In this document: positions 7,618 through 55,652 of the stretch, piece after piece | Numbering within the stretch: the stretch's first letter is position 1 | Layout: every line of letters starts with the position of its first letter | From: a virus | Direction: 5' to 3' (one strand) | Virus record (IMG/VR): IMGVR_UViG_3300036791_000660 | Coordinates: 1 to 56,956 of that record | DNA: 56,956 nt | Notes under the pieces: generated by a model | Database searches by the model: none | Seen by the model: only the letters and a program-made list of their open reading frames with translations | Told to the model about the DNA's origin: nothing | Position numbers and translations under genes: made by a program

Positions 7618-7913
7618 AGGCGGTCGGCAACGGTCTGGCCTGCCCGAAGTGCGGTGGCCTCGACCTCGACGTGAAGGACAGCCGGGCGGCCAACGGCATG
7701 ATCCGACGACGCAGACGGTGCACGGCGTGCAGCGAGCGCTTCACGACCTATGAAGCGGCGGCTGATGACGATGAACGTGGATCGTCGCTGATGCGGGCGC
7801 TCGACTTGCGGCGCAAGCTCGACGCGCTGCCGCCCAACCTGCGCCCGCTGATCGAGGCGCTGATCGACCGACTGAAGGAAAGCCATGCCACTGAAGATCA
7901 TCCCGACGCCTGA
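7614..7913 (+). CDS. NrdR-like zinc-ribbon protein without ATP-cone
   Basis: A 99-residue protein starting with GTG in a GTGA overlap. The N-terminus carries CPKCGG...VKDSR...[17 protein letters not shown], written here with gaps. This is the zinc-ribbon signature of NrdR, the repressor of ribonucleotide reductase genes. NrdR is about 150 residues, with an ATP-cone after the ribbon; here only about 50 unrelated helical residues follow. It may bind NrdR-box-like DNA without nucleotide sensing, but that is inference. Confidence 0.65.
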
Positions 7914-8199
7914 CTACATCATCACCAACTACGGCGACGTTGGTGCTGTCTACCTGATCGAGGCCGGGCCGTGGGCGGGCAAGCACGCCTGCTGCCTGTC
8001 GATGATGTTCACCGTCGGCATCGCGGTGATGGATGCCGACCAGTGGTACGCCCGCTGGTGCTACGACAAGCGCATCGAGGCATTGAAGGCGCTCACCGAC
8101 TGGGACGGCATGGGCGATCCGGGCGGCCCGTGGATCAAGTACAAGGGCCGGGGCGGTGAACGCCACGGGCCGGGCTCGACGGCCGAGGTGCGCGAATGA
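7885..8199 (+). CDS. Hypothetical protein
   Basis: A 104-residue protein overlapping the previous gene by 29 nt. It is rich in aromatic residues ([10 protein letters not shown]) and has a glycine-rich C-terminus. No family is recognised. Confidence 0.5.
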
Positions 8200-8420
8200 A
8201 ACTGGTCGATGTCACGTGGGGCGACCCGGTCAACATCCTGACGGTCGAGTGCTGCGGCGAGCAGTTCCGCCGGCCCTCGAACTACAGCCGGGTGCGTTGC
8301 CCTCGCTGCAACAAGATCGAGTTGTGGCATCGCGTGCAGCCGACCAAGCCCGGCAGCGGCTTCTTCGATGATCCGGTGATGGAGCAGCCGACATCACCCT
8401 TGACAAGTGTTGTCAGTTAG
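8196..8420 (+). CDS. Small zinc-ribbon protein
   Basis: A 74-residue protein. VECCGEQF followed by RCPRCNKIELW gives two Cys pairs typical of a zinc ribbon. It overlaps the previous stop by ATGA. Such isolated ribbons are common phage accessory genes; function is unknown. Confidence 0.55.
   Translation: MKLVDVTWGDPVNILTVECCGEQFRRPSNYSRVRCPRCNKIELWHRVQPTKPGSGFFDDPVMEQPTSPLTSVVS
8400..8414 (+). promoter_or_regulatory. TTGACA/GACA-N5-TGTC dyad
   Basis: TTGACA (8400-8405) is the left part of GACA-AGTGT-TGTC (8402-8414), overlapping the 3' end of the previous gene and 52 nt before the next ATG. The same dyad recurs beside late-region pentamer tracts. A convincing -10 box at the right distance is not seen, so it may be an operator or a divergent promoter. 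Confidence 0.4.
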
Positions 8421-8465
8421 TTCATTGGCCTTTGGTCGGGGAACGAGAGAGGCGCGACCACCTAA

Positions 8466-8903
8466 ATGAATCAGACGGGGAGCCTTGCAGCACGCCGGGC
8501 ATTCAATGAGCAGGTCAGCATCATCGGCACGCTGAGCGGCGATCTCGCGGCGATTAAGCAGACCGTCATCGCGGCGGCGACCGCCGGCATCATCGACATG
8601 CGCCACACTCACAATGTCTACGGCCTTTGGCAGCGCGTGCAGAAGCCGAAGCGTCCGCTGTGGAGCCGGCGCGCGGTCGAGTCGGTGATGGACCAGCGCC
8701 GCGCCCAGCAGGCCGCCGAGTTCAACACCATCAGGCAATGGGTAGAGACCGGCCGCCAGCGCTGGCGGAAAGGACAGGCACGTCATGGCCAAGGCGGAGA
8801 TACCGCAGCACCTGCGCCCGTATCACGAGGCGCGATGGAACGAATGGCAGGAACGGGTGGCCGAGGAGCGCGCCGAAGCCACCCGGCGCAACGTGGCGCG
8901 TGA
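8466..8903 (+). CDS. Hypothetical protein overlapping the next gene by 119 nt
   Basis: A 145-residue reading frame. The first about 107 residues look like a helical protein (FNEQVSIIGTLSGDLAAIKQ; RRAVESVMDQRRAQQAAEF). The last about 38 residues are Arg/Gly-rich and overlap the gene at 8785 in another frame, so they may be read-through after loss of an earlier stop. No family is recognised. Confidence 0.45.
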   Translation: MNQTGSLAARRAFNEQVSIIGTLSGDLAAIKQTVIAAATAGIIDMRHTHNVYGLWQRVQKPKRPLWSRRAVESVMDQRRAQQAAEFNTIRQWVETGRQRWRKGQARHGQGGDTAAPAPVSRGAMERMAGTGGRGARRSHPAQRGA

Positions 8904-9009
8904 ACAAGAAGACAAGAGGCAGCGACACGACTGCCGCAAGCGAACAGGGAATGCAATCGTCGGCATCTACGAGGTGCTGAAGATGTGGTGCAGATTCGGC
9001 TTCTACTAG
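8785..9009 (+). CDS. Small charged helical protein
   Basis: A 74-residue protein rich in Glu and Arg, with a long predicted helix (RWNEWQERVAEERAEATRRN). AAAGGACAGG precedes the ATG. It overlaps the previous frame. No family is recognised. Confidence 0.5.
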   Translation: MAKAEIPQHLRPYHEARWNEWQERVAEERAEATRRNVAREQEDKRQRHDCRKRTGNAIVGIYEVLKMWCRFGFY

Positions 9010-9029
9010 AGAGAGCGGGAGGCTATCAA

Positions 9030-9329
9030 ATGCTATCGTCTGGATTCGGCATGAGCCTGTTGTACGGGCTCGTGATGCTGTTGCTGATGGGCGGCGTGGT
9101 GTGGCTCGGTCAGTACGCCGAGCAGAAGCGGCTGGCGTGGGTGCGCGCGATCTACGATTATTCAGGCGTGCTGCTCGTGGCCGCCCCGATGCTGATCCTG
9201 ATATGGCATCTCTACCTGATGAAGGAGGATCGTCGGGGCCACCTCGCCAATCCGACGCCGGTGGTGGAGGGCGCCACCAAGGCGCTGGTCGGCACACTGC
9301 CGGCCGGCGTCGTGCGCGCCAAGGACTAG
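9030..9329 (+). CDS. Two-helix membrane protein
   Basis: A 99-residue protein. Helices at about 9-27 (SLLYGLVMLLLMGGVVWLG) and 45-61 (VLLVAAPMLILIWHLYL) are likely transmembrane segments, joined by a basic loop. GGGAGG lies 8 nt before the ATG at 9030. No family is recognised; a holin-like or superinfection-related role cannot be excluded. Confidence 0.55.
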   Translation: MLSSGFGMSLLYGLVMLLLMGGVVWLGQYAEQKRLAWVRAIYDYSGVLLVAAPMLILIWHLYLMKEDRRGHLANPTPVVEGATKALVGTLPAGVVRAKD

Positions 9330-9332
9330 GCG

Positions 9333-9479
9333 ATGAGACCCTTCGAGGTCGTCCTCATGTTGATCTTCTGGCTGATGTGCGCCGCCGTCTTCGCTATCAC
9401 CGGCGTGATCTCGTTCCTCGCGTGGGCAGCCGTCGTGACCGTCCAGAGAGCGCGTGCCCTTGCCCGACATTTCCTCTGA
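9333..9479 (+). CDS. Small membrane protein (48 aa)
   Basis: ATG at 9333, TGA at 9477-9479. About residues 4-40 are a long hydrophobic stretch (VVLMLIFWLMCAAVFAITGV, continuing to WAAVV), followed by a basic tail. It fits tightly between two genes, so it is probably real. Confidence 0.5.
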   Translation: MRPFEVVLMLIFWLMCAAVFAITGVISFLAWAAVVTVQRARALARHFL

Positions 9480-9481
9480 CG

Positions 9482-9832
9482 ATGCGAAACCTCGATGAAC
9501 TGAACCACTGCCGCGTGCCACTGCCCGACGTGGTCGGTGGCGGCAACGGCAACTATCGCAACGGCGCGTTCCTGCTGGTGCGCAACGGCGTCGAGCTTCG
9601 CATCATCGCCAGTGCCGGCGGCGGCTGGGACCATGTGTCGGTCTCGACGCCGGACCGCGTGCCAGATTGGAGCGAGATGGAATTTATCAAGCGCACCTTC
9701 TTCAAGGATGACGAGGTGGCGATGCAGCTTCACGTGCCGTCGAAGGACCATATCAACATCAACCCGCGCACGCTTCATCTCTGGAGACCTCGCCTCACCA
9801 AGATTCCGCTGCCGCCCAAGGAGTACGTGTGA
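9482..9832 (+). CDS. DUF7694-like conserved phage protein
   Basis: A 116-residue protein. SVSTPDRVPDWSEMEFIKRT, followed by FFKDDE and a C-terminal LHLWRP, matches a small family common in phages and prophages, known only as a domain of unknown function. It overlaps the next start by GTGATG. Confidence 0.6.
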   Translation: MRNLDELNHCRVPLPDVVGGGNGNYRNGAFLLVRNGVELRIIASAGGGWDHVSVSTPDRVPDWSEMEFIKRTFFKDDEVAMQLHVPSKDHININPRTLHLWRPRLTKIPLPPKEYV

Positions 9833-10014
9833 TGCGTCAGCCCACCCAGAACGACGCCATCGCCATCTGCGAACGGCTCGACCTGTTGATCGAACTGCTG
9901 CGGGAGCGCCTGCCCGTGCCCTGCGAGCACGAGTTCATCGCCGTGCAACACCCTGACCTGCCGAACACGGCTTACAGCGTGTGCTGCAAATGCGGCTATC
10001 GCCCGAATGGCTAA
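9832..10014 (+). CDS. Small Cys-containing protein
   Basis: A 60-residue protein. PCEHEF and a C-terminal VCCKCGYRPNG provide possible metal ligands. The first half is a helix (ICERLDLLIELLRERL). It overlaps the next gene by 8 nt. No family is recognised. Confidence 0.5.
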   Translation: MRQPTQNDAIAICERLDLLIELLRERLPVPCEHEFIAVQHPDLPNTAYSVCCKCGYRPNG

Positions 10015-15954: not shown

Positions 15955-15989
15955 TTGCAATGGGCTGGGAGATACCCTAAATAGAGGGT
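15955..15989 (+). promoter_or_regulatory. Early promoter with ACCCT-N6-AGGGT dyad
   Basis: TTGCAA (15955-15960), a 17-nt spacer and TAAATA (15978-15983), within ACCCT-AAATAG-AGGGT (15974-15989). A downstream CCGGGGACATTCCCGG hairpin and TAGGAGAGAGCC precede the next ATG. Confidence 0.7.
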
Positions 15990-16029
15990 GTCGCCGGGGA
16001 CATTCCCGGTTCTAGGAGAGAGCCAACAA

Positions 16030-17112
16030 ATGCAAAAAGGTCTTACGCTTGTAGAGATGGCCCAGAAGATCGAGGGCCTGAAGACGATGAAGAAGGACTT
16101 CATCGCCGATACGTCCAGCATGGAGATGGTGGTTGCGGACAAGAAGCCCGCGCTGCTGATCCCCTCGCAGGGCCAGTTCCCCGTGCTGCCGCTGGCGCAT
16201 AACCAGATCGCCGCGCGACTCGAAATGCCGGTCAAGTATTACGACCGCATGGCGCACGAAGCTCCCGAGCTTCTGGCGACCAACGTCAACCACTGGTTCA
16301 AGTCGTCCAGCGAGAAGCGGATGGTCCGCACGCTGTCGGGCAACACCCGCGCGTTCCTGTCGAACAAGTACCAGCGCATCGAGAACGAGGAGATCGCGCA
16401 GGTCGCCCTGCCGATCCTCATGAACACGCCCGGCCTCAAGGTCGTGTCGTGCGAGGTCACTGAGCGCCGCCTCTACATTCAGGCGGTCAACACCAACATC
16501 AAGCGCGAGATCAAGAGCAAGCGCGTCGGCGATGTCGTTGAGTCCGGCGTCGTGATCTCGAACTCCGAGGTCGGCCACGGCTCGGTGTCGGTCAGCGAAC
16601 TCGACTGGTATCTCGCCTGCCTGAACGGCATGATTGCCAGCAAGCTGATGCGGGCCAACCATGTCGGCCGGCTGATCGAGGACAACAACGACCTGTGGGC
16701 CGACGACACCAAGAAGGCCGACGACAAGGCGCTGGTGCTCAAGGTCCGCGACATGATCACGGCCGCGATGGACCCGACCCGGTTCAACGCTCGCATGGAC
16801 AAGGTGCAGAGCCTGACCGAGGTCAAGATCACGGGCAGCGTGCAGGCCTCGGTCGAGGTGCTGGGCCAGAAGATCGGTGCCTCGCAGGAGGAGACCGGCA
16901 ACATCCTGAAGGCCCTGATCGAAGGCGGCGACCTGTCCGCGTTCGGCATCCTTCAGGCGGTCACGGCGCAGGCGCACGACGCGCCGAGCTACGACCGGGC
17001 GGTCGAGTTCGAGGCGGCCGGTGGCCAGTTGATCGAACTGCAGCCGAGCGAATGGCGCGAAGTGCTGGAAGCCGACAAGGCTCCGGTGCGTCGCATGAGG
17101 AAGGCGGCCTAG
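16030..17112 (+). CDS. DUF932 family phage protein
   Basis: A 360-residue protein. RAFLSNKYQRIENEEIAQVA (about 117-136) and the later SEVGHGSVSV strand fit DUF932, a family found in phages and plasmids near recombination and replication genes. It is the largest product of its transcription unit, driven by its own promoter. The C-terminal region (about 255-345) is helical. The biochemical role is unknown. Confidence 0.65.
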   Translation: MQKGLTLVEMAQKIEGLKTMKKDFIADTSSMEMVVADKKPALLIPSQGQFPVLPLAHNQIAARLEMPVKYYDRMAHEAPELLATNVNHWFKSSSEKRMVRTLSGNTRAFLSNKYQRIENEEIAQVALPILMNTPGLKVVSCEVTERRLYIQAVNTNIKREIKSKRVGDVVESGVVISNSEVGHGSVSVSELDWYLACLNGMIASKLMRANHVGRLIEDNNDLWADDTKKADDKALVLKVRDMITAAMDPTRFNARMDKVQSLTEVKITGSVQASVEVLGQKIGASQEETGNILKALIEGGDLSAFGILQAVTAQAHDAPSYDRAVEFEAAGGQLIELQPSEWREVLEADKAPVRRMRKAA

Positions 17113-17190: not shown

Positions 17191-17535
17191 ATGAAGAAAT
17201 TCATCACCACACTGGCGCTCTGCGCCACACCGCTGGCGGTTCACGCTGGCAATGCCGATCCGGCAAGCGCCGGGCTCGGCTTCCTGACCCTCGGCATCAT
17301 CTTGGCCTGCTACTTCCTGCCCAGCATCATTGCGATGGTGCGGGGCAAGGCCACTGGCACGGGCGGCGTGGTCTTCGTCAACTTCTTCTTGGGCTGGACG
17401 GTGGTCGGCTGGTTCCTCGCCTTCGTGTGGGCGTGCACCGGGCTGACCAACGCCGACAAGGCCCGCGAGCAGCGCCGCCACGAGGAAATGATGGCAGCGG
17501 TGAGCGGCCGGATTCCGCCGAGGGCGCGGTCATGA
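17191..17535 (+). CDS. Superinfection immunity protein (Imm_superinfect family)
   Basis: A 114-residue membrane protein. An N-terminal signal or signal-anchor (about 1-20), a helix around 28-48, and the family signature VNFFLGWTVVGWFLAFVWA (about 63-81) are visible. The family includes T4 Imm, which blocks DNA entry of superinfecting phages at the inner membrane. The charged C-terminus should be cytoplasmic. It overlaps the lipoprotein gene behind it, suggesting joint expression. Confidence 0.8.
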   Translation: MKKFITTLALCATPLAVHAGNADPASAGLGFLTLGIILACYFLPSIIAMVRGKATGTGGVVFVNFFLGWTVVGWFLAFVWACTGLTNADKAREQRRHEEMMAAVSGRIPPRARS

Positions 17536-17909: not shown

Positions 17910-18118
17910 GCAATCCACAGATGACGGTGCGCCAGCTTCACGCGGCGCTCACCAAGATACTGCGCGAGCATGCCGACCGGCCTGTCACCATCTGGCTGCC
18001 GGGCTCGAAGATCGACCTGCATGGGGTGATCGGCCCGATGGCTGAGCCCAGAGGTGGGCCGGTCGAGGTGTTGATCGAAGGCAACCTGCGCGACGGGAGC
18101 GCTCTGGGCAATGAGTAG
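17906..18118 (+). CDS. Small hypothetical protein
   Basis: A 70-residue protein with a helical N-terminus (VRQLHAALTKILREHAD) and strands (PVTIWLPGS; PVEVLIEGN). This resembles short phage accessory proteins of unknown function. It overlaps both neighbours. Confidence 0.5.
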   Translation: MSNPQMTVRQLHAALTKILREHADRPVTIWLPGSKIDLHGVIGPMAEPRGGPVEVLIEGNLRDGSALGNE

Positions 18119-18470
18119 GAACTACAAGACCAAGATCGGCGTGCAGTGGGGCAGCCTTGCGCTCGCCAGCACGAACCTCTCCGACAAGGCCGAGACCCAG
18201 TTGCGGGTACGCCGGGTGAAGCCTTCGGACGAACCCGAGCACGTGCAGGTCGAGGTCGAGATCGTCCGCGTCGGCGCGATGCGGCGCGCCAGCTATCACG
18301 GCTACATCCAGCTTGACGCCAAGCAGGCCAAGGCACTGGCGACGGCGGTCAGCAAGGTCCAGCCGGACTACGACCGGGACTCGCCGCTCGCCGGCCTGCA
18401 AGCCGATTCGGACAAGGCGTGGGCCGAATTCTACGGCATCGACCCCAAGGATATGGCGAGGTTCCTGTGA
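18111..18470 (+). CDS. Hypothetical protein
   Basis: A 119-residue protein. The beta-rich first half (VQVEVEIVRVGAM) leads to a helical C-terminus. It overlaps the NADAR gene start by GTGA. No family is recognised. Confidence 0.5.
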   Translation: MSRNYKTKIGVQWGSLALASTNLSDKAETQLRVRRVKPSDEPEHVQVEVEIVRVGAMRRASYHGYIQLDAKQAKALATAVSKVQPDYDRDSPLAGLQADSDKAWAEFYGIDPKDMARFL

Positions 18471-18988
18471 AAAAATGTAACGTGAACCCCAAGCTTCTGA
18501 TCGACTTCTTCGACGGCACCGAGTTCGACTTCCTGTCCAATTTCCACCCGGCCTGCATCACGTGGGAGGGCAAGAAGTGGCCAAGCACCGAGCACGCCTT
18601 TCAGGCGGCCAAGACGACCGACGTGGCCTATGCCGAGCGCATCCGGCGCGCCCTGTCGCCGGGTCACGCCAAGTCGCTCGGCCAGCGGTCCTCGTTCATG
18701 CACTACGGCGTGGCGCTGCGGCCCGACTGGGACACGGTGAAGTACGACATCATGCTCGACCTGCTGCGGCTCAAGTTCGCCATCCCGTCGCTGCGCAAAG
18801 CCCTGCTGGCGACCGGCAACGCCAAGCTGGTTGAGGGCAACAGTTGGAACGACCGTGACTGGGGCGTCTGCGGCGAGGGCGCCAACAACCTCGGCCGCTC
18901 GCTGATGCTGGTGCGCGCCGAGATCAGGGCCGAGATCGCCGAGGCCAATCTGGAATATCTGACAGGAGAGAAGCATGGGACTCTTTAG
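18467..18988 (+). CDS. NADAR (YbiA-like) N-glycosidase
   Basis: A 173-residue protein starting with GTG. FLSNFHPACITWEGKKWPST with EHAFQAAK (about 24-52), then LLATGNAKLVEGNSWNDRDW and GVCGEGANNLGRSLM (about 107-142), cover the whole NADAR signature without gaps. Family members hydrolyse N-glycosidic bonds of ribosylated compounds. YbiA acts on riboflavin-pathway intermediates, and other NADARs remove ADP-ribose from nucleic-acid bases or act on ADP-ribosyl metabolites. The same genome encodes an ADP-ribosyltransferase (50808-55652), so an ADP-ribose-related role is likely but unproven. Confidence 0.85.
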   Translation: MKKCNVNPKLLIDFFDGTEFDFLSNFHPACITWEGKKWPSTEHAFQAAKTTDVAYAERIRRALSPGHAKSLGQRSSFMHYGVALRPDWDTVKYDIMLDLLRLKFAIPSLRKALLATGNAKLVEGNSWNDRDWGVCGEGANNLGRSLMLVRAEIRAEIAEANLEYLTGEKHGTL

Positions 18989-19244
18989 ACCGAGTGACGC
19001 TGAACTGGCCTTGCGCGCCGCCGAGGAACGCCGGCGAGTCGAAACCGCCGAGATCGAAATGATGATGGTCGATCCGGCTACCGGCAGCTACATGAAGGTC
19101 AGGCGCTACGCGCCCGGCCATGTCGCCGACCGGGCCATTGCCGTGGCGCTCGACCGCATGGTCAGCGCGCTCAACAATCAACCGGCGCTGCCGGCGCCCG
19201 CGCCCAGTGCCCCGGCACTGCTGACCGACCGCAGGAGCCGCTGA
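18975..19244 (+). CDS. Hypothetical protein
   Basis: An 89-residue protein with a charged helical N-terminus (ELALRAAEERRRVETAEIEM) and Pro/Ala-rich C-terminus. It overlaps the NADAR gene. No family is recognised. Confidence 0.5.
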   Translation: MGLFRPSDAELALRAAEERRRVETAEIEMMMVDPATGSYMKVRRYAPGHVADRAIAVALDRMVSALNNQPALPAPAPSAPALLTDRRSR

Positions 19245-19606
19245 TGGATGTCCTGCTGATCTTGGGCGGCGTCTTCGTCGTCTACTTCCTTGCCTTCAAC
19301 AGGGACACGAAGATCAAGAAGACCACGCATGTCGATGCCGATGGAACTCGTCATGAGACGCAAGTCGTGGGCGAGGTGCCTGTCTCGCTGGGCGAGCGCG
19401 CGGGGGTCGCTGCCATCATGACGATCTTCATGCCGTTCGTTGCCCCCTTCCTCGTGCTGGGCTGGCTGTTTGGCGAGCGCAAGCGGCCGACCATCCAAGT
19501 CGAGCACACCATGAGCCGGGACAACGAGAAGATCACGGTGCGCGGCACCGCCGATCCCAAGGCCAACAAGGACGTGATCGACATCCTGAAGCGGAGCGGG
19601 TCGTGA
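19244..19606 (+). CDS. Two-helix membrane protein
   Basis: A 120-residue protein. Transmembrane helices at about 2-18 (DVLLILGGVFVVYFLAF) and 55-77 (AAIMTIFMPFVAPFLVLGWL) enclose a polar loop. The C-terminus is a soluble strand-rich tail. No family is recognised. Confidence 0.5.
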   Translation: MDVLLILGGVFVVYFLAFNRDTKIKKTTHVDADGTRHETQVVGEVPVSLGERAGVAAIMTIFMPFVAPFLVLGWLFGERKRPTIQVEHTMSRDNEKITVRGTADPKANKDVIDILKRSGS

Positions 19607-20252: not shown

Positions 20253-20584
20253 AGGTCGCGATGAAGACGCTGGTCGATTTCGACAACGAACCGCTGAAGG
20301 CGGGCACCATCATCCTGACCACGCAGGTGGTGATGGTGAACTGCCTGATGGCCGACGTGCCGCCCAACGTGCCGCGCCGCACCGGGCAGGACGTGGCGAC
20401 GCGCGTGCAGCTTGCCATGGCGATCCACAAGATGAAGGAGGGCGAGGAGATCGAGATCAGCCTCGACACCGCCAAGATGCTGAAGGACGACGTGCTGCGG
20501 CTCTATCCGCCGATCACCAGCCACCAGCTTCTGGCGATGCTCGACCCGGCGCTGTTCTCGCCCGGCAAAGAGAAGGCCAACTGA
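20249..20584 (+). CDS. Hypothetical protein
   Basis: A 111-residue protein with a strand-rich start (VDFDNEPLKAGTIILTTQVV) and alpha/beta remainder ending in an EISLDTAKMLKDDV helix. The layout recalls small phage proteins that regulate neighbouring genes, but no family is recognised. Confidence 0.5.
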   Translation: MKVAMKTLVDFDNEPLKAGTIILTTQVVMVNCLMADVPPNVPRRTGQDVATRVQLAMAIHKMKEGEEIEISLDTAKMLKDDVLRLYPPITSHQLLAMLDPALFSPGKEKAN

Positions 20585-20991
20585 TGCAGGCCAAGATTCT
20601 CGAAATCCGCGACAGCGCCACGTACTTCGCCGTGGTGTGCGTCGATATGAACCCCGACATGGACCTGATCGACGTGGTCGCCGAGAAGCCGAGCGACCGC
20701 GTCCGCGAGCGCGCGGATCGCTACGACGCGCAGCGCTATCACCTGCGCCGTCGCGGCTTCCCGTGCGATGGCGTGCCGAATATCGCCATCCACCACATCA
20801 ACTGCGGCGGCGAGGCGGTGTGGAACGACCCCTACGGCTGGAGCCGCGACACACGCACCTACCGGGTGGCACATGAGTACATCTACGACCACTGGGCCGA
20901 GTTGAAGGACGGCGACGTGGTCGATGTCGAGTTCATCCTCGGCGAGACGACCGAGAAGAAAACCAGCGAGAGGATCAGCGACCCGTTATGA
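20584..20991 (+). CDS. Hypothetical protein
   Basis: A 135-residue protein, mixed alpha/beta, with a DVVDVEFILGETTEKK strand near the C-terminus. It overlaps neighbours. No family is recognised. Confidence 0.5.
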   Translation: MQAKILEIRDSATYFAVVCVDMNPDMDLIDVVAEKPSDRVRERADRYDAQRYHLRRRGFPCDGVPNIAIHHINCGGEAVWNDPYGWSRDTRTYRVAHEYIYDHWAELKDGDVVDVEFILGETTEKKTSERISDPL

Positions 20992-46871: not shown

Positions 46872-47894
46872 CTACTGGTACTGCGCCGAGAGGATGGTGA
46901 TCGCCTCCGGGCGGATGCCCCAACCGGAAGTGATGCGCCACTCGCTCAGCACGTCGGTCGCCCCGCCGGCCAGCGGCGAGGTGATCTCCTTGGGAGCCGC
47001 CATGTCGCAGTACATCGCAAGGCAGGCATTGTTGCCCGGCGACAGCTTGGCGAACTCGTTGGTGTTGATGCCGTCCTCGGTCGGCTTCTCGACCTCCGGC
47101 ATGGTGATGATGATGGCGTCGTTGCCGCCGGCACCCTTGCCGATCAGCGTGTCGTCGTAGGTCCACAGCAGCGTGTCGCCGTTCATCATCGCCACTTCCT
47201 TGACGACGCCGGCCGTGGTGGTCGAGCCCGCGCCCTGACGCTGGTACTGCGTCAGTTGCACGATGCCGGGGTACTCGAACTGTTCGAGGTCCCGCTGCGG
47301 GCCGCAGATGGTGAACTTGCGCCCGACGCCCAACTGGTTGGTGCGGGTCTTGATCGCACCGAGAAGCTGGAGCAGCAGGAACGCCATCTGGCCGTTGTCG
47401 TAGGTGACGATGGTCGTGTTGCCGTTGGAGTCGGGCGGCAGGTTGACCGCCGTCGCGCCGGCCGCGTTCAGGATGCCCTCGCCCTGCGCCGGGTTCATGC
47501 CGTACAGCAGCGCGTTGCGGGCAAGCTGGAAGTGACCTTGGCGCATGCCGAGCCGGTAGGCTTCCGGCAGGCCGATGCCCCACTGCGAGGCCGCCGCCTC
47601 GTCGTGGTGGTTGTAGATCGAGCGGACCTGCAACAGGTAGGTCGGGGTCGAGAACTGCCCGAGGATGATCTGCACGCCCGGCAGGCTGTTGTACGACGCC
47701 GGCCCAGCGGCCATCGTCGTACGGACATCGACCCGCTTCATGTAGACGTAGAGATCGCCCTCATCGAGCTTGTTGCGCGGCTCGCCGCCTTCGATCAGGT
47801 CGAAAGCGCCGGACGCCTGCGCATACGGCAGCAGGAGGTCGGGTTCCACCAGCGACGGGTTGACGATGGTGAAGGCTGGCGCAAGCAGTGCCAT
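46872..47894 (-). CDS. Major capsid protein (DUF2184-like)
   Basis: A 340-residue protein. LRTTMAAGPASYNSLP-like and GINTNEFAKLSPGNN segments, VRSIYNHHDEAAASQWGIGL and a C-terminal SEWRITSGWGIRPEAITIL fit the DUF2184 family, a capsid type with the HK97-like role. Position after scaffold-like and decoration genes agrees. No N-terminal prosegment is obvious. Confidence 0.7.
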   Translation of the reverse strand: MALLAPAFTIVNPSLVEPDLLLPYAQASGAFDLIEGGEPRNKLDEGDLYVYMKRVDVRTTMAAGPASYNSLPGVQIILGQFSTPTYLLQVRSIYNHHDEAAASQWGIGLPEAYRLGMRQGHFQLARNALLYGMNPAQGEGILNAAGATAVNLPPDSNGNTTIVTYDNGQMAFLLLQLLGAIKTRTNQLGVGRKFTICGPQRDLEQFEYPGIVQLTQYQRQGAGSTTTAGVVKEVAMMNGDTLLWTYDDTLIGKGAGGNDAIIITMPEVEKPTEDGINTNEFAKLSPGNNACLAMYCDMAAPKEITSPLAGGATDVLSEWRITSGWGIRPEAITILSAQYQ

Positions 47895-49648: not shown

Positions 49649-50623
49649 TTACTCTGGAAAGACCGCGTCCATTCGCGCGAGCAGATGCTCGATCTTCGAG
49701 TCAACGGCGACGATGGTGTTGCCGAGGTCGATCCCCTCGGGAACGCCGCCCTTGTCCCACACGCCTTGCCGACAGACGGCGAGGTGATCCAACAACGAGG
49801 GTTTGCCCTCGATCAGGATGTCGGTGCCGTCGCGGGTCTCGCCCATCGTGTTCACATCGGGATCGCGCCAGACGACGGCCGGTGAAGTCGAAAGCTGCTC
49901 GGTCTTCATGATGGTGGCAGCGTTTTGATCGTAAATCTTGGCGATGCCCCACACCTCGTCGCCCTTGATGTAGGGCAGCATGATCGTGCCGATGGCGCGG
50001 TCGCGGAACTCCTCGGTGTCGAGGATGTTCTGCGTCGCCGGGTGCTCCATGATCACCGGCAGGCCGTTGCAGCGCGCAAGGAACTCGTTGTTGAGGTAGA
50101 TCGCCGGATCGCGCTGCACGAACTCGCCCCACTTGTGCCTGAACGCCTGTCCGGTGCCGGTGACCCGCAGGTTGAACAGCGTAATGTTCTCGTAGTCCTG
50201 CGGCCCGCTCAGGATGCCGTCAGCCAGCGCGCGGGCGACGCCAAGCTCGTCCCAGTCGAAGCGCATCAGGGCGACCTCGCAGCCGGGATGGAGCGGCCGG
50301 GGTGGCGTCTTGGGATCGGCCCAGCGGAAGTCGGTGTGCTCGTAGTTCAAATTCGGCTCGAACTCGGTCACGCCGCGCACGATGAAGGTGGTGAACGCGA
50401 CGCCGCCAGTATCGGTGCGAGTCCAGAAGCTCAAGTGATCGGGCCGGGCGCGGATGTCGCACTCCTCCTCCAGTTCGCGCAGCGCCGTCTCGACCGGGGT
50501 CTCGTCGCCCTCGGTGCCGCCGCCGGGGATGCACCAGCGGCGCGGCATGTCGGAGCCGGGCGAGCGCTTGAGCAGCAGCACGTTGCCCTTGTCGCTCAGC
50601 AGCAGCGTGCCGGCAGCCTTCAT
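49649..50623 (-). CDS. NUDIX hydrolase fused to DUF2213 prohead-protease-like domain
   Basis: A 324-residue protein. Residues 1-140 are a NUDIX domain: GGTEGDETPVETALRELEEE matches the NUDIX box G-x5-E-x7-REUxEE, though the following Gly is Asp. From about 165, QRDPAIYLNNEFLARCNGLP, then VIMEHP, GTIMLPYIKGDEVWG and STSPAVVWR, fit DUF2213, a head-maturation protein seen between portal and capsid genes. The NUDIX part may hydrolyse ADP-ribose, NAD-type caps or other nucleoside diphosphates. Its substrate is unknown. It follows the ART-bearing gene with only one small gene between. Confidence 0.75.
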   Translation of the reverse strand: MKAAGTLLLSDKGNVLLLKRSPGSDMPRRWCIPGGGTEGDETPVETALRELEEECDIRARPDHLSFWTRTDTGGVAFTTFIVRGVTEFEPNLNYEHTDFRWADPKTPPRPLHPGCEVALMRFDWDELGVARALADGILSGPQDYENITLFNLRVTGTGQAFRHKWGEFVQRDPAIYLNNEFLARCNGLPVIMEHPATQNILDTEEFRDRAIGTIMLPYIKGDEVWGIAKIYDQNAATIMKTEQLSTSPAVVWRDPDVNTMGETRDGTDILIEGKPSLLDHLAVCRQGVWDKGGVPEGIDLGNTIVAVDSKIEHLLARMDAVFPE

Positions 50624-50808
50624 TTCTTCACCATGGCGTCGAGCTTGCGGCCGGCCTCGCGCAGCTTCTTGCGCTCGTCCTCGTGCTTGGCGCGGTGCTT
50701 GGCGCGCACGTCCTCGATCAGCTTGGCGTAGCGCGCGGACGGGTGCAGCCAGTGCTTGCCGCCCTCATTCAGCGCGTCGAATTGGGACATGTTGATCGTG
50801 TTCGGCAT
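50620..50808 (-). CDS. Small basic helical protein
   Basis: A 62-residue protein. ATG 50808 overlaps the previous stop (TGATG). It is highly charged (YAKLIEDVRAKHRAKHEDER). No family is recognised. Confidence 0.55.
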   Translation of the reverse strand: MPNTINMSQFDALNEGGKHWLHPSARYAKLIEDVRAKHRAKHEDERKKLREAGRKLDAMVKK

Positions 50809-53800
50809 CACGCGGCCTCGGCCAGTTCAGGCGGCGCGGCGTGGTGGCTGATCGGCACAGCGTCGAAGCTCGGGGCTTGGCCCTTCCACACGTCCCAGTC
50901 CTTGTAGGCCAAGCCGCCGATGACGACCTCGTGCTCGCCGTGCACGTTGATGCCGTAAGCGGGCAGCGAGATGACGGCGGTGCGCGGCACCCGGAAGCGC
51001 AGCGTGATCTTGGTGTCGCCCTTGCCGTTCCAGCCGTTGGCGACTCCCCGGTCGGTGGTGGTCGAGGCGGCGCCCGAGCGAATCAGGTTGAGGCCGGGCA
51101 TCTTGGCGAACCCGGTGCCGGTGCCCTTGGCGAGGACTTCAATGGTCTCCTCGTCCTGCATGCCGCTCACGCCCATGCCGCGATAGAGGTCGAGTTGGTG
51201 GATGCCGGCCTTGTGCAGCAGGTACTGGCTGGTCTCCCACTTGGCGCGCAGCATCGCCTTCAGGCCCTCGTAGCCGCCGACCGTGCTCAGGTCGCGGTCG
51301 GTCTGCTTGATGATGTCCTCGCGACTCGGCCACGAAAACTGCGAGGCGGCGCTGAACTTGGTGTTGGCCGCCTCCAGATTATCGCGGTCGATGCGCCGCT
51401 TCAGGATGTCGCCGTAGACGCTGGCTGCCGCCTCGAAGGCGCTCTTGTTCTCCTTGAGGAACGCCTTGCCCTCCGGGTTCCAGCCCTCGAACAGCGGGTC
51501 GCCGAGGTCGATGTCGGCCTTGAGGTCACCATTGGGCAGGCTCGACAGGTGCGTGGCCCGCGCGATGATGCCGGCGTTGGTGGGCAGCACGGCCGGCTTA
51601 TCGAAGGTGTCGATGAACTGCCTGTAGTGCTCGCCGAGTTGATTGCGCCATTGCGGGTTGCCGGAATTGAACCACTCGATGGCCTTGGCGTTGGTCGCCG
51701 GCTCGTAGCCCGCCCACTTCAGCTTGGCCGCGTCCTCGGCCTTGGACTTGCGCTCGCTGTTGGCGATCTCGGCCTTCTGGGCGATCTGCTTCTTGACGCT
51801 GGCCCCAATCGACAGGCCGTAGGCCTGCATCAGCTTCTTCTCGTCGTCGGTGAGCTTCGAGGCGTCGAACTCGACCTTGCCGAGACCATGCGTCGCCATG
51901 TCCTCCGGCGTTGGCGTCAACTGCATGACATTGGCGAGCTTCACGGCAAGCTGGCCCCTGCCTTCCTGTCCCGAGTACGCCGACGGCAACTCGCGCAGCT
52001 TCGACGGCAGGATGTTCTCCTTGGCGTTGATGATGCCGATCTCAACCGCGCGATAGAGCCACGGCGAGCGCTGCGCCGGGCTCTGGCCGGCGATCTCGGC
52101 GAAGTACGATTCGGGCGTGACCGGCGGCGGGGCCTTGTAGAACTTCGTGAGGTCAGGCTTCGCCGGCAGGCGCACGCGCCCGCCCAGTTCGTCGCCGACC
52201 GCCACCTGAAGTGCCATGCCGAGCGGGCTGGTCGAGGAGCCCTTCCATGCCTCCCAGATTCGACTGTCGGCCGCCTTGATCAGTTCGCGTTGCCGCTCGG
52301 CCGACTGGTCGAACCGCTTGCCGATGTGCTGGGTGATCTGATCCTTGATCATGTCTTCGAGGTTGCCCTTGCCGTAGCTCTCCAACTGCATGGCGTTCTC
52401 GGGCGACACCAGCGACTTCAGCTTGGCCATGTCGAGGTCGGCGTTGATGAAGCCGTCGCTGCCCGTCGCGAACTTGGCCGAGGTCAGCATCTTCGCCGCG
52501 AGATCACCCACCGTCGGCGTGTCCTTGGCGATGCTGATCAGGAACGACGATTCGGTCAGACCACGACCGACCTCGCCGATGGATCGCAGCGGCTTGCCGT
52601 GGCCATCGTCGGTGCCCATCACGTAGCGCACGCCGCGCCATGGCTCGCCTTTGTCGGCGAACGTGCTCTTGTTGGCCAGCCGCAGGTCGTCGTTCAGGGT
52701 GTCGGTCATCTGCGCGAACGAAGTCTTGGGCGGCGACACCTTCAGGATGCCACGTTCTGTCAGCAGTTGCTGGCTGCGGTCGTAGCTCAGTTGCCGCGCC
52801 ATGTACTGCGTCTTCTGGTAGTCCGCGCCCGAGGTCTCGTTCAGCGGATCGTAGCGTTTGGGCCGATCAATCGCCTTGGGCTTGGCCGACTTGAAGTCGG
52901 TCGGCGGCGCGGTCGCCGGCACGACGTAGGGCTTCGACGCCTCGTACTTCTCGTCCGGCTCCATCGCCTCGAACGACTCGCCCGTGCCCTCGTGGTCGGT
53001 CTCCCACCCCTGCTTGGCGGTCGCCTTCTCGTCGTCGGTCAGGAAGTCCCACTTGGTCGTCGGCTCCTCGGTGCCCTCGGGCTCGGGTTCCTCCTCCTCC
53101 TCCTCGTCCTCGTCGGGCTCGATCTCGTATTCGAGGTCGTCGCTGTCGAGATTTTCCTGCGCCTTCTGGAACTTCTCCTTGTCCGAATACTGGCCCCACA
53201 TCTCGTCCTGAAATTCCTCGACCGACTCGCCGAGGTAGTCGGGCGGGTCGATCTGGCCGCTGACCTTGTCCTGCTCCTTGTCGAACGCCTTGGTGAGCGC
53301 CTTCTCCAGTTCGTCGCGCATGTCCTGCGTCAGGTGGCCCGAGAGATCGGTCTGCTCCATGCCGGGCAGTTGACCCTGCTTCTCGGGGTCGTAGGCGAGG
53401 CCGATGGGCTTCTGGAGCTTGCTGTCGTCCCACTCCCACTCGGGGTCCTGCTTGGAGCCGTAGCCGGTCTTGTACTCGGCGGCCTTCAGCGCTTCCAGCA
53501 GTTGCGGCGTGTTGTAGGGCAGCGGTTGGTCCGGGTGCTCGTCGTCCCAGTCGTTGATCACGTCCTGCATCGTCTCGTCGGCCCAGTCCGTCTCGGTGCC
53601 GTCGTTGAAGTCGTTGACGATCTGCGAGCCGGCGTCATCGGCCGCGCCGCCGTTGTCGTACCAGTTGTCCTTCTCGCTCTGGAGGAAGTCGTCGTAGCTC
53701 GACTTCTTCCATTCCTGCTCGGCCTTCTCCTGAATGTGGTCCGGCAGCATGGACCATTCTTCGTACTCGGCCTTGTCGGGCTCGTGCTTGGCCTTCTTGG

Positions 53801-55652
53801 CCGGCGCAGGGTTGTTGGGCCGGCGCGAGTTCGCCTCCCACTCCGCGCTCGACACGATCTTGTCGGCCAGCGTGTCGAGTTCGGGCCGCGCCTGCTGGTA
53901 GTCGGTCTCCAGCTTGGTCGCGGTGTACTGGTTCCACTCGCTGCCTCCCACGTCGGTGGTCACGACGTTGAGTTCGTGCTCGGGCAGCTTCTCGGCCACC
54001 GCCTTGGCGCGCTCGCTGTACTCGTCGCCCTCCTTGGCGAAGAAGCTCATCAGGTCTTTTGAGCCAGTGCCCGTGGCGATCTCCTCGCCGCCGCCGGCCT
54101 CGCGCACCGTCCACTCGTCGGTCGTCTTGTTGTAGTCGATTTGGTGGTGCGGTCCCTCGGCGCGGGCCATGCCAGCTTCTGGCTCGCTCACGTCGAAGCC
54201 CCACTTGGCGAACGTGTCGCGCAGCGTCGGCGCGCCGCCACCACCACCGGATGTGAATTGCCCCCCGCCGCTCTCGCCCTTGGGCACGCGCGGGTGGCTG
54301 CTCTCGTCCCATGCGTCGGCGGCGGTCTCCAAGAAGCGCACGCGCCGCTCGCTGTCGTGACGGGCCTGTGGCTGCGGTTCAGGCGACGCCTGCACATCGA
54401 CCGGCGCGTGGCCAGCGCCGAACTGCTCGGCTTCCTTGAGCAGGTCGGTGATGCCGATGTTCACCCGGCTGATCTTCATGTGCTGCGTCAGCTTGCCCGA
54501 CGCCGCGTCGTTGCCGATCACCGCCGCCCAGCGGTGATGGCCGTCGAGGATGTAGTTGTCGCGGCTCACGATCAGGCGCGGCAGCTTCTTGTCGGGGTGC
54601 TGCTGCAGGCGCAGCGCGTTGGCCGCCACCTTGGCGCCGTTCAGTTCGTTCTGCGTCGCCCGCAGGTGGTCGGCGAGTTCCTTCTCCTTCGAGATCGTGT
54701 AACCCTTCGACAGCAGGTAGTGCTGGAACTGCTTGGTCTGGTCCTTGTCGAGTTGCGGCATCTCGATGCGCGGGATGCCCTTCGATTCGGCGCAGAACAG
54801 GTTGGTCTTGGCCACCGACACGTGACAGAGATCGAACACCGGGGCCTGCTTGCCGAGCTTGACCATCTCGGCCGTCACCTTGCCCAGCTTCTCGATCAGG
54901 GTCGAAACCTCGCGCGGCTGCGCCAGCACCACGTCGCGCCGCTCGTAGAGCGCCCGCACCGCGTCATCGACATCCTTGGTGTGAATGCGGCCCTGCCCGT
55001 CCACGAACGCGCTCGGGCTGTAGCCGTGGCCGGGATGCGCCCGGCCCTTGACCACGTCGCGCAACGGCTGGAGGCGGGCATCGATGTCGGTCTGCTTGAC
55101 GCCGTAGCTGCGGCCGATCTTGCGCGATTCCTTGATCAGCGCGTCGGCCTGCTTGGGGTCCATGCCGGCGAGCCGGCGCTTCCATACCTCGCCATGGCGG
55201 TCCGACGTGTCGAGCGGCGAGGGCACCAGCTTGCGCCCGATCTGGCTCTCGATGTGATCGTGCAGCGCGTGCGCCACGCCCTTGCCGGCGTGCTTGTCCT
55301 CGACCTGCATGGCCGACACGAACGGGTGCTTCTCGCTGAGATGGGCCGAGCCGGCGTACTCGCCGTTGATGTGGGCGCTGTAGAGACTGCCGGCGTGGCC
55401 GAACGTCATGCCCTCGGTCGCCTCGCCCTTGGCGACGAACTGGCCCTTGTTGGCGGGCTGGCCGCGCGGGTGGTCCTCCTCGACAAAGTCATCGGCGGCG
55501 GCGCTGCGCAGGATCGCCTGCATGTCCGCGATGGTGATGGTGTGCGAGTCGGCCGCTACCTCCGGGTCGAACCCATCCATGCGCGCGAGCAGCGCCTCGA
55601 TCTTGCCGCTGACCCTGATGGCGCGGCGCTTGATCGCGCGGGCGGACGGCAC
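50808..55652 (-). CDS. Polyvalent virion-region protein with C-terminal ADP-ribosyltransferase
   Basis: A 1614-residue protein, GTG start. About 57-74: HPR...NKGQFVAKG, a linker motif repeated at about 455-470 (HPRVPKGESGGGQFTSGG). About 85-150: GNAT-like, with VEDKHAGKGVAHALHDHIES. About 350-400: ParB/Srx-like, with YILDGHHRWAAVIG (about 363-376). About 500-1400: long charged, largely helical regions with acidic Glu/Asp tracts. About 1420-1600: ADP-ribosyltransferase of R-S-E type, with LYRGMG (Arg), SGAASTTTDRG (S-T-T) and GEHEVVIGG (E-x-E). Giant proteins of this kind (polyvalent proteins) are thought to enter with DNA and act on host targets. The arginine-specific ART is inferred from E-x-E. 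It lies in the head gene block. Confidence 0.75.
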   Translation of the reverse strand: MPSARAIKRRAIRVSGKIEALLARMDGFDPEVAADSHTITIADMQAILRSAAADDFVEEDHPRGQPANKGQFVAKGEATEGMTFGHAGSLYSAHINGEYAGSAHLSEKHPFVSAMQVEDKHAGKGVAHALHDHIESQIGRKLVPSPLDTSDRHGEVWKRRLAGMDPKQADALIKESRKIGRSYGVKQTDIDARLQPLRDVVKGRAHPGHGYSPSAFVDGQGRIHTKDVDDAVRALYERRDVVLAQPREVSTLIEKLGKVTAEMVKLGKQAPVFDLCHVSVAKTNLFCAESKGIPRIEMPQLDKDQTKQFQHYLLSKGYTISKEKELADHLRATQNELNGAKVAANALRLQQHPDKKLPRLIVSRDNYILDGHHRWAAVIGNDAASGKLTQHMKISRVNIGITDLLKEAEQFGAGHAPVDVQASPEPQPQARHDSERRVRFLETAADAWDESSHPRVPKGESGGGQFTSGGGGGAPTLRDTFAKWGFDVSEPEAGMARAEGPHHQIDYNKTTDEWTVREAGGGEEIATGTGSKDLMSFFAKEGDEYSERAKAVAEKLPEHELNVVTTDVGGSEWNQYTATKLETDYQQARPELDTLADKIVSSAEWEANSRRPNNPAPAKKAKHEPDKAEYEEWSMLPDHIQEKAEQEWKKSSYDDFLQSEKDNWYDNGGAADDAGSQIVNDFNDGTETDWADETMQDVINDWDDEHPDQPLPYNTPQLLEALKAAEYKTGYGSKQDPEWEWDDSKLQKPIGLAYDPEKQGQLPGMEQTDLSGHLTQDMRDELEKALTKAFDKEQDKVSGQIDPPDYLGESVEEFQDEMWGQYSDKEKFQKAQENLDSDDLEYEIEPDEDEEEEEEPEPEGTEEPTTKWDFLTDDEKATAKQGWETDHEGTGESFEAMEPDEKYEASKPYVVPATAPPTDFKSAKPKAIDRPKRYDPLNETSGADYQKTQYMARQLSYDRSQQLLTERGILKVSPPKTSFAQMTDTLNDDLRLANKSTFADKGEPWRGVRYVMGTDDGHGKPLRSIGEVGRGLTESSFLISIAKDTPTVGDLAAKMLTSAKFATGSDGFINADLDMAKLKSLVSPENAMQLESYGKGNLEDMIKDQITQHIGKRFDQSAERQRELIKAADSRIWEAWKGSSTSPLGMALQVAVGDELGGRVRLPAKPDLTKFYKAPPPVTPESYFAEIAGQSPAQRSPWLYRAVEIGIINAKENILPSKLRELPSAYSGQEGRGQLAVKLANVMQLTPTPEDMATHGLGKVEFDASKLTDDEKKLMQAYGLSIGASVKKQIAQKAEIANSERKSKAEDAAKLKWAGYEPATNAKAIEWFNSGNPQWRNQLGEHYRQFIDTFDKPAVLPTNAGIIARATHLSSLPNGDLKADIDLGDPLFEGWNPEGKAFLKENKSAFEAAASVYGDILKRRIDRDNLEAANTKFSAASQFSWPSREDIIKQTDRDLSTVGGYEGLKAMLRAKWETSQYLLHKAGIHQLDLYRGMGVSGMQDEETIEVLAKGTGTGFAKMPGLNLIRSGAASTTTDRGVANGWNGKGDTKITLRFRVPRTAVISLPAYGINVHGEHEVVIGGLAYKDWDVWKGQAPSFDAVPISHHAAPPELAEAA

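Follow-up and report, generated by a model that had tools for sequence, protein, structure and literature searches.

A YbiA-type NADAR protein and a head-block ART in separate gene blocks of a phage genome

The window, by which we mean the whole stretch of DNA analysed (56,956 nucleotides, the full extent of IMG/VR record IMGVR_UViG_3300036791_000660), comes from a soil-type phage and encodes a NADAR protein of the YbiA type in a plus-strand block and an ART domain in a minus-strand block of head genes. With confidence a little short of even, we favour the reading that the NADAR is a counter-defence ADP-ribosyl N-glycosidase and that the ART is a separate virion effector. This reading starts from the domains, residues, fold and co-occurrence that were observed and extends to a predicted activity, timing, injection and substrate.

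The NADAR gene and the neighbours relevant to its site are as follows.

15988..17112, plus strand: DUF932-like protein, anchoring the synteny to the left of the NADAR (phrog_1362, E 2e-51)
17191..17535, plus strand: Imm_superinfect family protein (PF14373, 52.9 bits; cut-off 27.9)
18467..18988, plus strand: NADAR domain protein, YbiA-type, 173 aa (Pfam, alignment with 8bau, fold match)
20584..20991, plus strand: 135-aa orphan protein, often near this NADAR (repeated proximity to NADAR)

The Pfam NADAR family (PF08719) matched 18467-18988 with 85.3 bits (E = 7.1e-24; cut-off, 35.1 bits). The start is predicted: the GTG at 18467 was used, giving a 4-base overlap with the preceding gene, and the frame is also open from an alternative GTG at 18419. 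The catalytic residues of the NADAR from the oomycete P. nicotianae (8bau) are E43, K50 and E125 (PMC11543638), and a phmmer alignment placed E42, K49 and E123 of the window protein at these positions. All three were invariant in the 41 phage NADARs of alignment A4, which consists of 38 of 53 loci and the NADAR copies of the window and of records G001 and G003. An AlphaFold2 model of the protein had a pLDDT of 90.7 and matched YbiA (2b3w; Z 18.6, rmsd 2.4, 153 aligned) as well as the ADP-ribose-containing structure of the oomycete enzyme (8bau; Z 17.0, rmsd 1.8, 143 aligned), while the next-best entry in the fold comparison had a Z of 2.9. A complete NADAR signature had been noted originally, and this was borne out by the domain score, the presence of all three residues and a YbiA fold predicted with high confidence.

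The last catalytic position separates the NADAR types, with Glu in the YbiA type, His in the gp30.3 type and Asp in the DarT1-linked type (PMC11125620). By E123, the window NADAR is assigned from its sequence to the YbiA (Glu) subfamily; the gp30.3 type was ruled out because E123 stands where a histidine is required, and the DarT1-linked type because an aspartate (D171 of C7) would be expected there. The Glu type as such is not exceptional among phages, with E123 in 41/41 rows of A4, an alignment gathered with the window NADAR as the query, and a tblastn search detected a NADAR relative in 682 phage records, all at less than 60% identity. A DarT next to the NADAR was not detected, the frames at 18111-18467, 18975-19241 and 19244-19603 having no Pfam match, although a strongly diverged DarT would escape this search.

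In the plus-strand block, an exonuclease VIII-like gene, a UvsX-like ATPase gene, the DUF932-like gene and the Imm_superinfect gene precede the NADAR, and it is from these neighbouring recombination genes that early expression of the NADAR would be expected. The DUF932-like protein scored 15.1 bits against Pfam DUF932, which is under the cut-off, and was 60% identical in G002, a relative whose corresponding site is without a NADAR. The Imm_superinfect gene lies 0.9 kb upstream of the NADAR; a homolog was also present near the NADAR of G003 and was not found in G002. The 135-aa orphan had no match in Pfam or PHROG. In G076, a gene of its family shares a few bases with the NADAR gene; members also occur near the NADAR in G001 and G003 and in the ART-carrying record G057, which has no NADAR. 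A role for this orphan as a true partner of the NADAR was unsupported, as a NADAR was present in the available flanks of only 2 of 21 orphan loci, both from the G001 phage.

The minus-strand block comprises tail and head genes, and the gene for a NUDIX-DUF2213 protein lies between those for the capsid and a polyvalent protein.

46872..47894, minus strand: major capsid protein, which defines the relatives (phrog_6671, E 8.7e-142; major head protein phrog_264)
49649..50623, minus strand: NUDIX fused to a DUF2213-like head maturation protease region, 324 aa (Pfam, PHROG)
50808..55652, minus strand: polyvalent head-block protein, 1614 aa, with a C-terminal ART, adjoining the NUDIX-DUF2213 gene and near the capsid gene
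50850..51317, minus strand: putative R-S-E ART domain with E-x-E (A3 profile, conservation, ART folds)

The 1614-aa protein resembles polyvalent virion proteins in its size, its multiple domains and its location in the head block, and packaging and injection are predicted for it. A weak GNAT-like match and a phrog_2859 region were detected at its N terminus, and its C terminus was assigned as an R-S-E ART. Within the last 175 residues, R52, E134 and E136 were conserved in 34/34 and S91 in 33/34 sequences of alignment A3 (built from the window sequence and 33 of 56 loci; P0001 numbering). The A3 profile gave 215 bits for the window ART, a score that is high by construction since the window sequence is one of the A3 rows. 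No Pfam ART model, ART-PolyVal (PF18760) included, matched the polyvalent protein at an E of 0.1; among the A3 members, 2/34 matched DRAT (best E, 1.2e-4) and 1/34 matched ADPrib_exo_Tox weakly. The ART sequence P0001 had no match in the phages collection, and searches of PDB sequences by phmmer and profile gave nothing useful. A structural model of the domain (pLDDT 78, from an alignment that includes the window sequence) retrieved mostly ARTs, among them TreX (Z 5.7), Scabin (5.3), ScARP (5.0) and KptA (4.8). All of these values were under 8, and given such modest scores the assignment depends jointly on the motif and the fold. In the protein at 49649-50623, NUDIX (PF00293) scored 57.2 bits against a cut-off of 21.1 and the translation contained the Nudix box pattern; DUF2213 scored 18.5 bits, under its cut-off, and matches to phrog_6216 (E = 2.9e-93) and the head maturation protease phrog_530 were detected. 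The expected ART and NUDIX were therefore both located in the head block, the former at the C terminus of 50808-55652.

Co-occurrence of these genes was examined among 49 capsid relatives, comprising the window and 48 of 80 loci for the major capsid protein (contigs of at least 25 kb); the capsid tree included the window and 34 of these 48 loci. Most records are possibly fragments, which weakens each absence. NUDIX-DUF2213 was present in 46/49 relatives, with or without a NADAR. By Pfam search, the main test, the NADAR was present in the window, G001 and G003 (3/49); the A4 profile gave no match in 27 capsid relatives, a search that had no positive control and in which the sensitivity of the profile is indicated by an E of only 0.0025 for T4 gp30.3. 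The A3-type ART was detected in the same three records (3/49), PF18760 in one (G001) and PF03496 in two (G005 and G030). A weak P0001 match of 36 aa in G045 was not confirmed by A3 and was not counted. Thus, 5/49 relatives had any ART, and three of these five were the NADAR carriers (Fisher p = 5.4e-4, kinship ignored). In the capsid tree, the window paired with G001 (98/94) and G002 with G003 (99/93). G002 lacked both NADAR and ART: this 79-kb record covers the NADAR site and retains the DUF932-like and DUF3846 neighbours with the NADAR missing between them, Pfam matched nothing in its large polyvalent protein and the record yielded no ART. The presence of both genes in G003 and of neither in its sister indicated that the two traits had changed together at least once.

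Five isolates were also compared. All carried the NUDIX (5/5), and neither a window-like NADAR nor an A3-type ART was detected (0/5 for each). In three of them, Klebsiella phage Chronis, Yersinia phage 29.18 and Pantoea phage PdC23, the preceding gene directly adjoins the NUDIX gene and no polyvalent gene intervenes. By the isolate pattern, the NUDIX is core and ART and NADAR are accessory. Capsid matches were to phages of Klebsiella, Yersinia, Pantoea, Shewanella and others at less than 60% identity and to a Rhizobiales MAG at 67%. A three-part linkage including the NUDIX was rejected, the frequencies of 46/49 and 5/5 for NUDIX contrasting with 3/49 and 0/5 for NADAR. The co-occurrence of NADAR, ART and NUDIX that had been proposed for this phage therefore stood for NADAR and ART, which were found together in the closest relatives above expectation, and failed for the NUDIX, which was present regardless of the NADAR.

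Beyond the capsid lineage, the ART set contained 54 loci besides those of G001 and G003, and the 33 in records of at least 16 kb were tested for NADAR. One of these 33 records with an A3-type ART (G076) had a NADAR, and none of the 11 of at least 50 kb did. In the NADAR set, 44 of 53 loci were tested for ART with A2 and PF03496; A2-type ARTs were detected in G001 and G003 and PF03496 ARTs in G082, G083, G111, G112 and G119. A NADAR tree placed the window, G001, G003, G082, G083 and G076 in one group (89/97). An ART was present in 6/6 phages of this window-like clade versus 3/39 records with more distant NADARs (p = 1.0e-5), the clade having been scored by A2/A3 or PF03496 and the controls by A2 and PF03496 only; a weak A2 match in one control, G086 (39 positions, E = 0.0097), was not counted. 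This comparison is optimistic because the hypothesis came from the window itself and G076 was located via its ART. Without these two, the counts were 4/4 versus 3/39 (p = 2.8e-4) or, with size-matched controls, 4/4 versus 3/13 (p = 0.015). Kinship connects three of the six clade phages with one another and likewise G082 with G083, leaving two to three lineages in total; counted as two lineages against 3/39, the p value was 0.012. G084, which has a NADAR and no detected ART, was discarded as a counter-example, as it is the same phage as G001 (99.9 to 100% identity over the overlaps) and ends at about 23 kb on the G001 scale, without reaching the ART (15.6-16.1 kb of G001). These two IMG/VR records of one phage each hold what the other is without.

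Different ART families were represented in the clade: A3-type in the window and G003, A3-type together with ART-PolyVal in G001 and G076, and PF03496 in G082 and G083, the ART of G083 matching an Alt-like PHROG. The PF03496 genes are on the same strand as the NADAR, 13 to 15 kb from it, away from capsid genes and, according to gene labels read from sequence, beside nucleotide-metabolism-like genes, so that head packaging is less clear in these two phages. A NUDIX was found in the window, G001, G003, G076 and G082 and was not found in G083.

Further features of the polyvalent proteins were noted. In G002, the place of the window polyvalent protein is taken by two proteins (L083:2263-7827 and 7623-9998), one with a GNAT domain and a segment sharing 59% identity with window residues 55-413 and the other carrying HExxH close to its end. 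The G001 protein at C1 10009-12090 had ART-PolyVal matches in addition to its C-terminal ART, giving several ART domains per protein. A short tag, [DE]ES.[HE]PRD..G[KQR][FW]T.GGG, recurred one to six times in ART-bearing and other polyvalent proteins, often before a domain. It was present in 26/56 ART-bearing frames (0.05 expected from shuffled sequences) versus 19/536 other open frames, and could be a head-packaging or protease-processing tag. The window protein bears two copies in the form HPR...GQF, and G082 and G083 carry the form HPR..GKF. Tag sites were as follows.

Window 50808-55652, minus strand: tags at aa 58 and 449
L083:2263-7827: six copies of the tag
L324:5898-8549: tag site
L295:172-2001: tag site

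The acceptors of the two enzymes may differ. An E-x-E motif was present in 34/34 A3 ARTs and, by reading, in the ARTs of G076, G082 and G083, and this motif points to an arginine acceptor on protein. Guanine specificity of the window ART was considered, since Scabin and ScARP were among the top folds, about level with TreX, and was rejected because E-x-E replaces the Q-x-E of the pierisin-type guanine-modifying ARTs (PMC7828395), in which the glutamine, as described for ScARP, reads the guanine (PMC11543638). T4 gp30.3, YbiA and other NADARs remove guanine-linked ADP-ribose from DNA and RNA and are inactive on thymidine-linked or phosphate-end ADP-ribose (PMC11125620, PMC11833690). With E-x-E ARTs on one side and guanine-acting NADARs on the other, a simple toxin-antidote pair acting on one known bond is unlikely. 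NADAR activity on arginine-linked ADP-ribose, which is also N-glycosidic, is possible.

The counter-defence reading would work as follows. The stand-alone YbiA-type NADAR would be an intracellular product of the recombination/replication block and would strip ADP-ribose placed by a host defence on phage or host molecules or cut ADP-ribose-derived signals. The head-block ART would be a separate Alt-like virion effector with E-x-E and the NUDIX a core head-protease fusion; ART and NADAR would share a host-takeover programme and not necessarily the same bond. This reading is favoured by the NADAR residues and fold, the published guanine chemistry, the consistent E-x-E of the ARTs, the lack of NADAR in 32/33 other ART records and the proximity of the Imm_superinfect gene. 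It leaves the tight association with ARTs (6/6) unexplained. Furthermore, cells were rescued from DarT1 only by the C7 and EPEC NADARs and not by T4 gp30.3 or E. coli YbiA (PMC11125620), so that in-vivo protection by NADARs of the latter kind is unproved.

The association itself has a quite plausible ecological origin in shared hosts and gene pools, chance and kinship. The small number of lineages and the relatedness within them agree with such an origin, whereas the clade ARTs belong to different families (A3, PF18760 and PF03496/Alt-like) and stand in different capsid backgrounds, which argues against it. This explanation concerns the association rather than the enzyme and is compatible with counter-defence. 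Alternatively, the NADAR could act as an eraser paired with the virion-borne ART of the same phage. The ART would mark host targets at entry, and the NADAR would later clear or limit the mark; in a variant, the NADAR would shield the infected cell from the ARTs of superinfecting relatives. Both genes occur in the window, G001 and G003 and neither in G002 with its syntenic NADAR-free site, and the clade association persisted in the reduced sets. We nevertheless consider an eraser role unlikely: the records are related and the support falls when lineages are counted, 32 other A3-type ART records (11 of them of at least 50 kb) had no NADAR, the protein arginine acceptor predicted by E-x-E is no known NADAR substrate, and G005 and G030, both possibly fragments, have a PF03496 ART and no NADAR. 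The same motif and the ART carriers without NADAR weakened an earlier proposal that the phage combines a host toxin with self-protection. The stronger claim is that this YbiA-type clade works in functional coupling with E-x-E ARTs of several families carried in virions, the ART marking host proteins at entry and the NADAR later erasing this arginine-type N-glycosidic mark or shielding against the ARTs of superinfectors. It is doubtful; if true, NADARs would have a substrate of a new kind, and ADP-ribose marks would be written and later erased by enzymes encoded in two separate blocks.

Two further explanations concern the substrate. A NADAR that cuts only soluble ADP-ribose derivatives (cADPr-type or ADPr-1''P) and no macromolecular marks is a narrow form of the counter-defence explanation and, taken by itself, improbable. 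This activity has been proposed from context for phage NADARs (Iyer et al.; PMC9503650, PMC7824862); the accessible text of these papers holds no direct enzymatic demonstration, and NAD salvage, SLOG and Macro genes were not found among the scanned subset of window proteins. A role in riboflavin metabolism or overflow, as cited for some NADARs in PMC11125620 and known for some YbiA proteins, would fit the YbiA-type glutamate. It is very improbable here, no riboflavin gene being found among the scanned window proteins and the ART association being left unaccounted for.

Phage NADARs are common and their role in infection is unsettled. A small NADAR clade found entirely in ART phages, with a close sister phage (G002) in which both genes are missing, provides a concrete protein pair that bears on whether the ADP-ribosylation targeted by phage NADARs is that of the phage itself or of the host. 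In the titles and abstract openings retrieved by literature searches, there was no study testing a NADAR against a virion-borne ART, and a literature search on NADAR, bacteriophage and NAD+ depletion found no paper.

Several known systems resemble this arrangement. The DarT1-NADAR and YarT-YbiA toxin-antitoxin systems also pair a NADAR with an ART, the NADAR of the YarT system being YbiA-type; those genes are adjacent, whereas the window NADAR and ART are approximately 32 kb apart in opposite blocks, and the window ART has R-S-E with E-x-E and is neither DarT-like nor YarT-like (H-Y-E). Like the polyvalent proteins of Iyer et al. 2017 (PMC5512222), the window protein is large, comprises several domains, belongs to the head block and has an ART at its end; it differs in having no match to the Pfam family ART-PolyVal. 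In T4, a head-carried ART (Alt), an intracellular NADAR (gp30.3) and a Nudix (NudE) occur in one phage, the identities of NudE and gp30.3 being taken from PMC9503650 and PMC11125620. The T4 record places alt (123454-125502) and 30.3 (128307-128765) 2.8 kb apart on one strand, notes Alt in the capsid and labels 30.3 as hypothetical. The gp30.3 protein is of the His type (PMC11125620) and the window NADAR of the Glu type, and the window ART is inside a polyvalent protein on the opposite strand from the NADAR and in another block. NADAR followed by Nudix processing of ADP-ribose was proposed in a jumbo-phage survey (PMC7824862). Another precedent is the viral network of Iyer et al. 2022 (PMC9503650), in which ARTs occur in head-packaged polyvalent proteins, Nudix domains are fused to MuF, portal and capsid-processing peptidase, and T4-like phages express NADARs early, together with ARTs; the window matches it in its predicted head-packaged ART, its Nudix-peptidase fusion and its predicted early NADAR. 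The original suggestion that this could be an undescribed phage system was too strong, since that paper had already proposed one NAD-ADP-ribose network joining virion-borne ARTs, Nudix-head protein fusions and early NADARs. The link between a NADAR subclade and ARTs was found here and does not appear in the accessible parts of PMC9503650. The general scheme is thus already published, and the window adds to it an example with suggestive linkage.
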